This document shows, piece by piece, positions 34,875 through 40,359 of a stretch of DNA of 64,000 nucleotides. The notes below the pieces were generated by a model. The model had not been told where the DNA came from and did no database searches. It saw nothing but the letters and a program-made list of their open reading frames with translations. A program made the translations under genes and the position numbers. The stretch covers positions 124,001-188,000 of the forward strand of contig NZ_FNAD01000010.1 of assembly GCF_900101745.1 (NCBI RefSeq), read 5' to 3'. The stretch is from Glycomyces harbinensis (lineage in GTDB: Bacteria; Actinomycetota; Actinomycetes; Mycobacteriales; Micromonosporaceae). Positions within the stretch are counted from its first letter, which is position 1. Each line of letters begins with the position of its first letter.

Positions 34875-35996
34875 ATGAGACTCAAGACGATCCGCACTCC
34901 GCTCGCCGCCGCGACCGCGGCGCTCGCCGCCGTCCTGGCAGGAGGCCCGGTCTTCGCCCAGGAGGAGGCCGAGCCCGTCAGCGGCGACGTCGTCACCGCA
35001 CCGGGCCTGGAACTGCGCGGCCGCCTCGACGGCGAGCGGTACGACGTGTGGGCCAACGTCCTCGGCCTCACGCCGCACGGCTCCGAGGAGACCCTGGTGG
35101 TCTACTGCATCGACATCCGCACCCCGCTCGACACCGAGAGCCCCTACACCGAAGGGGACTGGGAGGAGTCGGAGGTCGCGAACCTCGAGGCGGTCCGCTG
35201 GGTCCTGTTCAACGGCCACCCGAACGTCGCGCCCGAGGACCTCATCGAGGACTCCGGCGCCGAGGTCAACCCGGACTGGAGCGACGAGGAGGTCGCCGAG
35301 GTCGCCTACGCGGGCACCCAGGCCGCCGTCTGGCACTTCACCGACGACTGGGACCTGTTGTCCGACAACCCGGTCAAGGGCGGCAACAACGGCGAGGACG
35401 AGGCCGTGCTCGCGATCTACGGGCACCTCACCGAGGACACCGGGCGCGTGCCCGACCCCTCGGAGTTCACTGTGGACCTCGAGGGCGCCGGCGAGGCGAC
35501 GTACGAGGACGGCCGCTTCGGCCCCTACACCGTCCGCTCCAACGCCGGACCCGTCGAGCTGACCGCCGAGGGCGCGAGGCTCGAGACCGAGGACGGCGAC
35601 GAGGCGACGTCGCTCGACGACGGCGAGTCGTTCTGGATCGTCCTCGACGAAGGCGCCGAGGAGATCACCGTCAAGGGCATCGCGGCCTACGACCTCCCGG
35701 TCGGCCGGGTCTTCCTCGCCACCGACGACGAGGCGCTCTCGGGCGACGCGGTCAACCCGATGACCTCCGGCGACTCCCAGAAGCTCATCCTCGCGCAGCC
35801 GCGCGAAGGCGAGGTCCCGGCCGAATGGCGGTTCGCGCTCCAGGCGCCGCCGACCGACCGGCCCTCCGAATCGGGCGGGGCGCAGCTGCCGACCACCGGC
35901 ACCAGCCTCACCGTCGCCTTCGCGGCCGGGCTCGCCCTGCTCGTCGGCGGCCTCACGGTGATCGCACTCGGCAAGCGCCGCAGGGCGACCCACTAG
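34875..35996 (+). CDS. LPXTG-anchored TQXA thioester-domain surface protein 1
   Basis: 373 aa. Sec signal peptide (MRLKTIRTPLAAATAALAAV... to VFAQ), a TQXA thioester domain with Cys in VVYCIDI and Gln in YAGTQAAVWHFTD, a beta-rich stalk (about 190-330), and a sorting signal LPTTG followed by a hydrophobic helix and KRRRATH. The Cys-Gln thioester in this family can bond covalently to host or surface amines, and the LPTTG tail should be linked to peptidoglycan by a sortase, which is not in this window. AGGAGG precedes ATG 34875. It is the first of two tandem paralogues. Confidence 0.88.
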   Translation: MRLKTIRTPLAAATAALAAVLAGGPVFAQEEAEPVSGDVVTAPGLELRGRLDGERYDVWANVLGLTPHGSEETLVVYCIDIRTPLDTESPYTEGDWEESEVANLEAVRWVLFNGHPNVAPEDLIEDSGAEVNPDWSDEEVAEVAYAGTQAAVWHFTDDWDLLSDNPVKGGNNGEDEAVLAIYGHLTEDTGRVPDPSEFTVDLEGAGEATYEDGRFGPYTVRSNAGPVELTAEGARLETEDGDEATSLDDGESFWIVLDEGAEEITVKGIAAYDLPVGRVFLATDDEALSGDAVNPMTSGDSQKLILAQPREGEVPAEWRFALQAPPTDRPSESGGAQLPTTGTSLTVAFAAGLALLVGGLTVIALGKRRRATH

Positions 35997-36396
35997 TACC
36001 TGAAGGACGCGGGCGTGCGTTCGGTCGATGGCGCCGCCCGCTGCCGCAGGAGCGTTCCGGACCTCATCCAACGGTCCGGACCCGGGCGCGCTCCAGCGGT
36101 TCGAACATAAGGCCCGGCGCATGGTGCGGCCGGGACCGAGGCAAGCGATCCGCTTCGGTCCCGGCCACTCGCGCACCAGCCGTACCCGGGCGCCACACCG
36201 CTTCCGGAGCGGCCCGGTCCGATGCCGAATCGTTATAGTGGCGCGCCTCTCGCAGGTCGCGCCTTTCGTGTTGCGCCCCAGTCAAAACCCAGCTCAATGA
36301 AATACCGGGCCCTAGTGCAACCTGCGGGCTACCGCTAACGTGTCGAATGAAGATTCAACGCGTCAATCCCTCGGAAAAGCAAAGGGACTCTATTCA
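35997..36396. other. 400-nt region between the two surface-protein genes
   Basis: Contains a bulged hairpin CCCGGCGCA/TGCGGCCGGG (36113-36134), TATAGT at 36234-36239 as a lone -10-like box, and the AT-richer leader of the second gene with AAAGGGA as its ribosome-binding site (about 36381-36387). No gene is supported. Confidence 0.5.
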
Positions 36397-37500
36397 ATGA
36401 TGACCAAAGCCCTGAAAGGGACGCTCGCCGCTGCCGCGGGGATCGCGGTAAGCCTGAGCGGCGTCGCCGCGGCCCAAGCGCAGGACGAAGGCGGGGACGT
36501 CGGGACGCTCGCCGCGGGCGACGTCTCCCTCGAGGAAGGCATCCGGCTCAACGGCCAGAGCCAGAGCCCCGAGGCCACGATGATCAGCCTCGACCTGGGC
36601 GAGGGCGACTTCCGCACGGTCTACTGCATCCAGATCGAGGTCGGCCTCCTCGAGGACAACCACCACGAAGAACGCCCGTGGGAGGACATCCCCGTCGAGC
36701 AGCTGCCGCTCGTGCTCGGCGTCCTCGTCAACGGCTACAACGGCACCAACGCCGCCGACCTGATCGAGGCCGCCGGCGTGTCCGGCGAAGACCTCGAGGG
36801 CTTCAGCGCCGACCAGGTCGCCTACGCCGGCACCCAGGCCGCCATCTGGTCGCTGACCGACGGCTGGGTCATCGAAGCCGACTCCACCGAAGGCGGCGCC
36901 GGCGTCGACACCGCCGTCTCCACGATCCAGCAGTACCTGATCGACAGCTCCGAGCCCGTCGACGAGCCCGACTTCGAGCCCTACTTCGAGGTCGACGACT
37001 CCGAGGCCACCACCGAAGGCACCACGGTCGGCCCGTTCACCGTCTCCACCAACCTCGACGCGCTCACCTTCGGCCAGCCCGAAGGCGCGACCATCGTCGA
37101 CGAGAACGGCGACGAGGTCACCTCGTTCGAGGACGGCCAGTCCTTCTACGTCGAATTCGCCGAAGAGCAGTCCGGCACGGTCTCCCTGGTGACCGACTCG
37201 GTCACCTGGACCACCCCGGCCGGGCGCACCTTCGTCCCCGTCGACGCCGACGGCGCCGACGTCGAGGGCCAGCGCCTCATCCTCGCCGAGAGCCACACCG
37301 AGGAGTACGCCGCCGAGGTCGAATTCGAGTTCGTCGTCGAAGAGGCGCCCTCCGAGTCGCCCAAGCCGGAACTCCCCGTCACCGGTTCGAGCCTGACCAC
37401 CGTCGCCTCCATCGGCGGCGGAGTCCTGCTCGCCGGCGTCGTCGCGCTGGTGCTCATGCGCCGCCGCCGCGCCGCCTCCAACTGGGGCTCGGAAGCCTAA
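36397..37500 (+). CDS. LPXTG-anchored TQXA thioester-domain surface protein 2
   Basis: 367 aa, same architecture as the preceding gene: signal peptide MMTKALKGTLAAAAGIAVSL cut near AAQAQ, thioester domain with Cys in TVYCIQIE and Gln in YAGTQAAIWSLTDG, acidic beta stalk, and LPVTG sorting signal with a hydrophobic helix and RRRRAAS. ATG 36397 is preferred over GTG 36340 because it puts the signal peptide at the N-terminus and has AAAGGGA upstream; ATG 36400 is equally possible. The sequence similarity to its neighbour is moderate, so the duplication is not recent. Confidence 0.88.
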   Translation: MMTKALKGTLAAAAGIAVSLSGVAAAQAQDEGGDVGTLAAGDVSLEEGIRLNGQSQSPEATMISLDLGEGDFRTVYCIQIEVGLLEDNHHEERPWEDIPVEQLPLVLGVLVNGYNGTNAADLIEAAGVSGEDLEGFSADQVAYAGTQAAIWSLTDGWVIEADSTEGGAGVDTAVSTIQQYLIDSSEPVDEPDFEPYFEVDDSEATTEGTTVGPFTVSTNLDALTFGQPEGATIVDENGDEVTSFEDGQSFYVEFAEEQSGTVSLVTDSVTWTTPAGRTFVPVDADGADVEGQRLILAESHTEEYAAEVEFEFVVEEAPSESPKPELPVTGSSLTTVASIGGGVLLAGVVALVLMRRRRAASNWGSEA

Positions 37501-37525
37501 CGGCAGCCGAACACTGCGATGAACG

Positions 37526-37560
37526 CCACACGCCCGCTGGTCAGACCGGCGGGCGTGTGG
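37526..37560 (+). terminator. Long hairpin ending the surface-protein unit
   Basis: CCACACGCCCGCTGGTC (37526-37542) pairs with GACCGGCGGGCGTGTGG (37544-37560), 16 of 17 pairs. Its right arm directly abuts the -10 box of the next promoter, whose -35 lies inside the hairpin. Confidence 0.7.
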
Positions 37561-37566
37561 CATAAT
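37538..37566 (+). promoter_or_regulatory. Promoter of the chorismate mutase attenuator
   Basis: TGGTCA (37538-37543), 17-nt spacer, CATAAT (37561-37566). The -10 ends 6 nt before the GTG of the leader peptide, so the transcript should begin at that start codon. Confidence 0.6.
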
Positions 37567-37572
37567 TGCGCC

Positions 37573-37641
37573 GTGACTTGCAGCGCTCGATTTTACTTTT
37601 ACTACGGCACGGATCGTCCGAGCCGTAGGTCTTCGCGCTGA
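37573..37641 (+). CDS. Leader peptide of Phe/Tyr attenuator
   Basis: A 22-codon frame, GTG to TGA, not long enough for ordinary gene calls. Codons 7-11 are TTT TAC TTT TAC TAC, giving FYFYY (37591-37605), five consecutive aromatic residues in a 22-residue peptide, directly upstream of chorismate mutase, the entry enzyme to Phe and Tyr. A ribosome waiting for charged tRNA-Phe or tRNA-Tyr would stall at the first hairpin (37602-37628). No Shine-Dalgarno sequence; the -10 box lies 6 nt upstream, so translation is probably leaderless. The peptide itself has no expected function. Confidence 0.75.
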   Translation: MTCSARFYFYYGTDRPSRRSSR

Positions 37642-37655
37642 ACACAGACCTACAG

Positions 37656-37682
37656 CCCCGGGCGAACCGCCCGGGGTTTTTT
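37656..37682 (+). terminator. Attenuator terminator
   Basis: CCCCGGGCG (37656-37664) and CGCCCGGGG (37668-37676), perfect 9-bp stem, AAC loop, T6 at 37677-37682. The strongest U-run terminator in the window, located before, not after, the enzyme gene. Confidence 0.9.
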
Positions 37683-37743
37683 GACGCCCAGGGCAACACC
37701 ACCGCCCGGAGTTCGATCCGCATCGCACTTAGGAGAAGCCCTG

Positions 37744-38010
37744 ATGACCGCCGCCAACGCCGAAGTCGCTCCCGACGAGCTCAAAGACCTGCGCGTCGAG
37801 ATCGACCAGCTCGACACCGAGATCATCCGCCTGTGGCAGCGCCGCGCCGAAGTCTCCAAACGCGTCGGCCAGATCCGCATGGCCAACGGCGGCACCCGCC
37901 TGGTCCTCGACCGCGAGCGCGCCATCCTCGAGAAGTACCGCCAGGCCCTCGGCGACGACGGCATCCAAATCGCCATGCTGGTCCTGCGAGCCGGCAGGGG
38001 CCCGCTCTAA
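37744..38010 (+). CDS. aroQ: Chorismate mutase, AroQ class
   Basis: 88-aa all-helical chorismate mutase converting chorismate to prephenate, first committed step to Phe and Tyr. Helix 1 LKDLRVEIDQLDTEIIRLWQ with the conserved Arg, then RRAEVSKRVGQIRMANGG (Lys at the active site), RLVLDRERAILEKYR with the catalytic Arg-Glu pair, and a final helix. AGGAG precedes ATG 37744. Expressed behind the attenuator at 37573-37682. It is free-standing, with no prephenate dehydratase or DAHP synthase fused or adjacent. Confidence 0.9.
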   Translation: MTAANAEVAPDELKDLRVEIDQLDTEIIRLWQRRAEVSKRVGQIRMANGGTRLVLDRERAILEKYRQALGDDGIQIAMLVLRAGRGPL

Positions 38011-38040
38011 GCACACGTACGGGCGACGCCCGATCGAGCC

Positions 38041-38076
38041 GTGCCGCGCCGCGGAGTGTCGTACCCGGCGCGGCAC
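38041..38076 (+). terminator. Hairpin after chorismate mutase
   Basis: GTGCCGCGCC (38041-38050) pairs perfectly with GGCGCGGCAC (38067-38076), 16-nt loop, no T-run. Confidence 0.5.
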
Positions 38077-38106
38077 TGCGCTTCCGTTACGCCTTGCAAG
38101 CTGCGG

Positions 38107-38112
38107 CATAAT
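38107..38112 (+). promoter_or_regulatory. -10 box of pcrA
   Basis: CATAAT, embedded in GGCATAATTG exactly as in the attenuator promoter 546 nt upstream, 9 nt before ATG 38122. The mRNA would have almost no leader. Confidence 0.5.
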
Positions 38113-38121
38113 TGTTGCTCT

Positions 38122-40359
<2,238 letters not shown>

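Follow-up and report, generated by a model that had tools for sequence, protein, structure and literature searches.

The window analyzed here, the whole stretch of 64,000 nucleotides from Glycomyces harbinensis, contains a 243-base gap between a gene encoding an LPXTG surface protein (36340-37500, PF08341) and aroQ (37744-38010, + strand), which encodes a type II chorismate mutase (Pfam CM_2 PF01817, E 3.1e-11; PDB 2qbv, Rv0948c, E 9.2e-21). Direct reading of this gap uncovered a leader peptide frame, VTCSARFYFYYGTDRPSRRSSR (37573-37641, + strand), with a GTG start, 22 sense codons and a TGA stop codon at 37639-37641. Its candidate regulatory codons encode Phe-Tyr-Phe-Tyr-Tyr (TTT TAC TTT TAC TAC, 37591-37605, + strand). 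The first-pass annotation had placed a 22-codon leader with FYFYY ahead of chorismate mutase; its coordinates are exact, and the Pfam match identifies aroQ as a CM_2 protein. Among the 1193 short ORFs of the window (8-40 codons), the leader frame, with three nested starts, was the only one with a run of at least four aromatic codons, and no such run occurred in any of five mononucleotide shuffles of the window, ruling out a chance run of aromatic codons. The gene just upstream is one of two adjacent genes (34875-35996 and 36340-37500) encoding LPXTG-anchored proteins with thioester (TED) domains.

A pattern scan found a promoter-like pair, TGGTCA (37538-37543) and CATAAT (37561-37566), on the + strand with a score of 9/12, one such pair against a mean of 0.1 in shuffles. 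Both the scan and direct reading agree with the earlier claim of a -10 box ending 6 nt upstream of the leader GTG, and the core ATAnT is invariant in 29/29 aligned leaders. Because the start codon comes only 6 nt after the -10 box, the leader mRNA is probably leaderless, as far as spacing can indicate. The -10 box is adjoined by a long inverted repeat, CCACACGCCCGC...GCGGGCGTGTGG (37526-37560), which is present in Glycomyces loci and may terminate the upstream gene while overlapping the promoter.

The leader region folds well beyond expectation: 37573-37684 reached -50.6 kcal/mol (z -4.88), and 0/200 shuffles were as good. Reading and folding both confirmed the two mutually exclusive hairpins and the 9-bp terminator with T6 that had been annotated at first pass. 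Hairpin 1:2 (37602-37628, + strand, -17.3 kcal/mol) pairs 37602-37608 with 37622-37628 and, through CGGA:TCCG, 37610-37613 with 37617-37620. The intrinsic terminator on the same strand consists of nine G-C pairs (37656-37664:37668-37676) followed by T6 at 37677-37682, with an energy of -20.4 kcal/mol. A terminator pattern scan listed no site in 37200-38400, supposedly because its stem rule also pairs the AG ahead of the stem with the initial Ts, so that the tail keeps fewer than five.

The antiterminator was folded with segment 1 masked and with the terminator 3' arm not yet made. Under these conditions, the inner 2:3 stem of 8 bp (GTAGGTCT 37625-37632 with AGACCTAC 37646-37653, + strand) is extended by two further pairs (37622-37623:37655-37656, + strand) and by an outer stem of 7 bp (37614-37620:37659-37665, + strand), the whole structure (37614-37665) reaching -24.3 kcal/mol. 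Hairpin 1:2 and the antiterminator are mutually exclusive, with 37614-37628 common to both. The antiterminator also uses the terminator 5' arm at 37656 and 37659-37664, its outer stem capturing 37659-37665, which comprises six of this arm's nine bases plus one loop base. The first-pass annotation had called the contact between hairpin 2:3 and the terminator weak, limited to G37655-C37656. This understated it; as folding without the terminator 3' arm shows the outer helix, which also covaries, we dropped that concern. Folding predicts the longer antiterminator for the window and for the majority of 30 leaders shown from a set of 36 distinct ones. Once the terminator is complete, its combination with the inner 2:3 stem gave -30.8 kcal/mol and that with hairpin 1:2 -37.7 kcal/mol. 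Since the inner 2:3 stem can coexist with a complete terminator, and hairpin 1:2 plus terminator lies lower still, read-through must be kinetic, and the switch must act ahead of terminator completion.

Several features of a classical attenuator are found at this locus: clustered codons for the pathway products, mutually exclusive hairpins, an antiterminator that takes up the terminator 5' arm, and an intrinsic terminator before the gene. We read the leader as a putative trp/phe-type attenuator, acting on transcription through the ribosome, which would sense the supply of Phe and Tyr and control aroQ, and we put the probability of this sequence-based reading at roughly 0.87. We infer the stalling, termination and read-through steps as follows. 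Transcription would start at the leader GTG. When charged tRNA-Phe and tRNA-Tyr are ample, the ribosome would reach the stop codon and cover segment 2, allowing the terminator to form. If either tRNA runs low, the ribosome would halt on one of the five Phe/Tyr codons and cover segment 1; segment 2, including the 1:2 loop, could then pair with segment 3 and the terminator 5' arm, allowing read-through into aroQ. If the leader is not translated, hairpin 1:2 would form and transcription would end.

To what extent the leader is shared was explored at increasing distances. A first scan for aroQ relatives returned 18 loci (16 from Glycomyces, one from an actinomycete MAG and one weak match in Reinekea), and the leader was present in 17/18, the weak Reinekea match being the one without it. 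These 17 loci, the window and 29 further family loci made up a set of 47 sequences (36 distinct). Within Glycomyces, leader length varies by whole codons, with the exception of L011, where an earlier stop occurs at TAG. Covariance model R1 matched one copy each in 21/21 genomes of the genus, and the broader model R2 matched the leader in 148/150 genomes of the family (E 1e-4). A separate protein search over these 150 genomes also gave 148 with aroQ; G005 (69% complete) and G063 (77% complete) lacked both a leader match and an aroQ match. All 147 placeable family leaders lay upstream of aroQ on the same strand, 53-271 bases (median 98) from its aligned part; for the 148th, in G002, aroQ was absent among the matches listed. 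Each modelled terminator pair was retained in 87 to 95 rows out of 93 to 95, in an alignment fitted to the structure. The leader is conserved in close relatives at these genus and family counts, and its absence there, which the first-pass annotation had set down in advance as an outcome against its reading, did not occur.

In the order, R1 matched in 183/397 genomes. Forty of these matches were fetched, and 39 lay before aroQ (38 by tblastn, L084 by reading frame), while the remaining one, L091, preceded a DAHP synthase-like frame. In the class, R2 matched in 113/394 genomes, and 69 of those loci were examined. A phylum-wide draw gave matches in 17/246 genomes at E 1e-4, 13 of them within the class and 4 outside it, the latter being model matches alone. 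Leaders such as MLTQTTFLFTYGNRPTGCHGRAA are found ahead of aroQ in genomes of family f33, which we infer to be Streptomyces-like, and leaders such as VLSWQRRFFYGYRSAVPVGI in genomes of family f8. The f8 enzyme is near the intracellular chorismate mutase Rv0948c (one enzyme, E 8e-40), and f8 is called Mycobacterium-like because of this closeness to a solved structure. One batch of 40 class loci comprised 8 leaders before aroQ, 25 before DAHP synthase (two confirmed by Pfam, the rest called from reading-frame text) and 7 spurious ones (L148, L149, L165, L166, L168, L171 and L177); locus L141 ends at a contig edge. The Phe/Tyr richness of the distant leaders is partly selected, because the models were trained on sequences with such codons. 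Two f8 loci, L175 and L185, keep the leader peptide before aroQ with a shortened or lost terminator, possibly a decay of the switch; having no whole terminator, they were left out of the sorted leader set and of the cognate, pair-count, codon and ribosome analyses.

The codon content of the leaders was compared with the gene that follows them. Chorismate mutase supplies Phe and Tyr alone, whereas DAHP synthase serves Phe, Tyr and Trp. We sorted 131 leaders by downstream gene using a protein motif, and ten loci that this left open were settled by tblastn or by their frames. Trp occurred in the 8-residue aromatic core of 3/104 leaders before aroQ versus 24/27 before DAHP synthase, counted over related sequences; for distinct family-core pairs, the figures were 2/73 versus 13/16. 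Phe was encoded by TTT in 170/256 leader codons versus 1/64 in five window genes. The Trp and codon counts omit 20 family leaders whose downstream gene was not individually checked, and the codon count also omits L040. Judged by these sequences, the leader codon set appears to match the pathway position of the downstream enzyme. Loci L151-L154 (f28) and L155-L164 (f31) carry Trp/Phe/Tyr leaders before DAHP synthase (VTRWFSYFAG, MQRNFWRFYGY, MRTAFWFWYGD). A model of the DAHP synthase leaders, R3, was discarded, its alignment A5 holding 45 rows from 27 loci with off-target rows included.

The window's own genome holds a second attenuator-like leader, MAVRSYQRFMLAPGGAGSRLR, with hairpin and terminator, before its type I DAHP synthase (L188:2560-2740, corresponding to G000:C20:545729-545909, - strand). 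A stretch of this type was found in 18/21 genomes of the genus. A Trp codon stood near Tyr and Phe codons in 9/12 of the leaders read, mostly as RWYQRF, and the window's own genome has one of the three without it. For the type II DAHP synthase (L189), the upstream stretch examined showed no comparable leader. We lean slightly toward a model where one ancient leaderless family of aromatic attenuators extends across the class, joined to chorismate mutase in some lineages and to DAHP synthase in others, with its codons rewritten for each branch point, with Phe and Tyr before chorismate mutase and Phe, Tyr and Trp before DAHP synthase. Each leader would then combine the end products of its enzyme in the manner of an OR gate, and the rare TTT codon would sharpen the response.

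The same leaders bear on whether slow decoding is what would stop the ribosome. The nascent FYFYYG chain could instead act as an arrest peptide that halts the ribosome upon sensing a free amino acid or some other signal, and YG does commonly follow the aromatic codons among aroQ leaders, which leaves room for contacts made by the peptide. However, the residues themselves vary (FYFFY, FYLYY, FYGYY, YFTY, FVFTY, FFYG), and leaders of DAHP synthase have Trp in addition. A stall on plenty would, moreover, presumably switch biosynthesis on when it is unneeded. We consider arrest by the peptide improbable, and return to the attenuator reading, in which the position of the ribosome should decide the fold.

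Alignment A4 supplied the terminator row counts above and the ribosome, cognate and pair-count comparisons below: 9 off-target rows were dropped from its 104 to give 95, then 5 repeats to give 90 and, for the ribosome comparison, one leader with no usable frame to give 89. The ribosome was moved along the leader in silico, with an assumed distance of 12 nt between the A-site codon and its front edge. In the window RNA, the predicted probability of the outer helix was 0.37-0.38 with the ribosome on the five codons preceding FYFYY, 0.90, 0.90, 0.97, 0.97 and 0.84 on the F, Y, F, Y and Y codons, 0.41 on the next codon (Gly) and 0.00 thereafter. With no ribosome, it was 0.00, and hairpin 1:2 had a probability of 0.96. 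A coarser measure, capture of the terminator 5' arm by anything upstream, averaged 0.62 over 89 leaders before the aromatic codons, 0.77 on them and 0.09 from the third codon past the aromatic run to the stop. Capture was highest on the aromatic codons in 72, 59, 56 and 42 of the 89 leaders for front edges of 11, 12, 13 and 14 nt, respectively. The window's own coarse capture was 0.75 before versus 0.77 on the aromatic codons, and f13 leaders showed lower capture on the aromatic codons than before them. In these predictions, the sharp edge falls after the last aromatic codon and the edge before them is generally weak; for the window, the latter is visible for the specific outer helix but not by the coarse measure. 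The stall position decides the fold in silico both in the window and, clearly after the codons and weakly before them, in the 89 leaders.

We then turned to covariation. Alignment A1 (29 rows, MAFFT) was not fitted to the antiterminator, of which 7 outer and 4 inner pairs were counted. In it, 92.2% of the cells could pair, compared with at most 42.1% after sliding by 1-3 columns, and the covariation score of 0.174 (shuffled mean 0.076) was reached by 0/500 shuffles. The pair C37615-G37664 was formed in 28/29 rows with 11 changes on both sides and occurred as CG, AU, UA, GU and UG. Pairs with two-sided change numbered 2, versus a shuffled mean of 2.1, and so were not in excess, and the outermost antiterminator pair formed in only 14/29 rows. 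Hairpin 1:2 was paired in 88.6% of the cells on 29 sequences and shows little covariation, as it hardly varies.

Pairing between the hairpin region and the terminator was also stronger for cognate partners than for partners from other families (-19.3 versus -16.8 kcal/mol, 90 distinct leaders), with a mean permutation p of 0.002 when one sequence was drawn for each of 14 families. The own partner was no better in some families, percentiles falling below 0.5 on one or both sides in f2, f7, f12, f16, f36 and f50. At least 5 pairs between the hairpin-1 region and the terminator arm were found in 78/90 leaders and fewer in 12/90, with 3 nt of segment 1 masked. Of the shuffled hairpin regions, 31% reached the observed pair count and 11% the energy; because they pair this often, the pair count alone is weak evidence. 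By eye, several f15 leaders (L088, L095 and L101) have a terminator 5' arm, CCGGAGTCC, with an extra base that is needed by GGACTCCGG of the leader and unneeded by the terminator's own 3' arm.

A terminator that merely ends upstream transcription or shields aroQ, with the leader peptide as a small protein or an accident, would not require its 5' arm to covary with the hairpin-1 region. That explanation draws on two features just upstream, a strong inverted repeat and the LPXTG gene's end. It was considered and rejected as very improbable, since the leader has a promoter-like site of its own and stands before aroQ in every one of the comparable family genomes. Directly after the terminator, CAGGGC (37689-37694) can pair with GCCCTG (37738-37743) directly before the ATG of aroQ, a fold that would enclose the ribosome site. 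By eye, both arms recur in many Glycomyces loci. Least probable of all is that this fold exerts mainly translational control with the leader only tuning it, a reading that would leave the terminator unexplained. The first-pass interpretation, a trp/phe-type attenuator layout with mixed Phe and Tyr codons, emerges as the best-supported reading, owing to its conservation and to the extended, covarying antiterminator.

No Rfam leader or T-box reached its curated cut-off in the window, where three tRNAs were the only matches and the best leader score was 21.9 bits for Leu_leader against a cut-off of 50; Rfam leaders gave 0 matches in the loci of 16 relatives. An Rfam leader family or T-box identity was rejected on these scores. 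The literature searched here yielded no description of an actinobacterial aroQ attenuator, and a word search showed that "chorismate" is absent from the main text of PMC13236596, PMC9094748, PMC4633059, PMC8269248, PMC2965389 and PMC4833913. The aroQ Phe/Tyr version of the attenuator seems to be undescribed and is widespread among actinomycetes, and the leader family behind it is unusually wide and regular. It would give the actinomycete Phe/Tyr branch a direct supply sensor where a 2005 survey reported no conserved RNA element upstream of Phe/Tyr operons in Actinobacteria (PMC1262725). If confirmed, the leaders would serve as a simple means of engineering actinomycetes for aromatic overproduction, and they would form a natural collection of sensors from whose codons the logic of the pathway can be read.

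Ribosome-mediated attenuation is a textbook principle. The pheL leader of E. coli has Phe codons only and is led by a ribosome site, unlike the Phe/Tyr and apparently leaderless one of the window. The likeness lies in the placing of a leader peptide ahead of a gene for chorismate mutase activity, pheL-pheA being controlled by charged tRNA-Phe according to excerpts of PMC11802643. For actinobacteria, the first-pass annotation knew of no described attenuator of this kind, a statement that does not hold as it stands: the aroR leader of Corynebacterium glutamicum, with Phe-Tyr-Phe codons before aroF (DAHP synthase), is described as attenuation in portions of PMC11802643 and PMC4046766 and is a described relative. 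Compared by description only, it is likewise an actinobacterial Phe/Tyr-codon leader before an aromatic-pathway gene. It differs in location, as it controls DAHP synthase and the window leader lies before chorismate mutase, and it responds to Phe and not to Tyr in the account given in part of PMC11802643. In Streptomyces lividans, trpL, leuL and ilvL are leaderless leader peptides followed by hairpins, and the eight leader peptides listed in the relevant section of PMC8079986 include none for Phe or Tyr. These S. lividans leaders, as presented there, share with the window the actinobacterial arrangement of a leaderless leader peptide and hairpins, and differ from it in the amino acids concerned.
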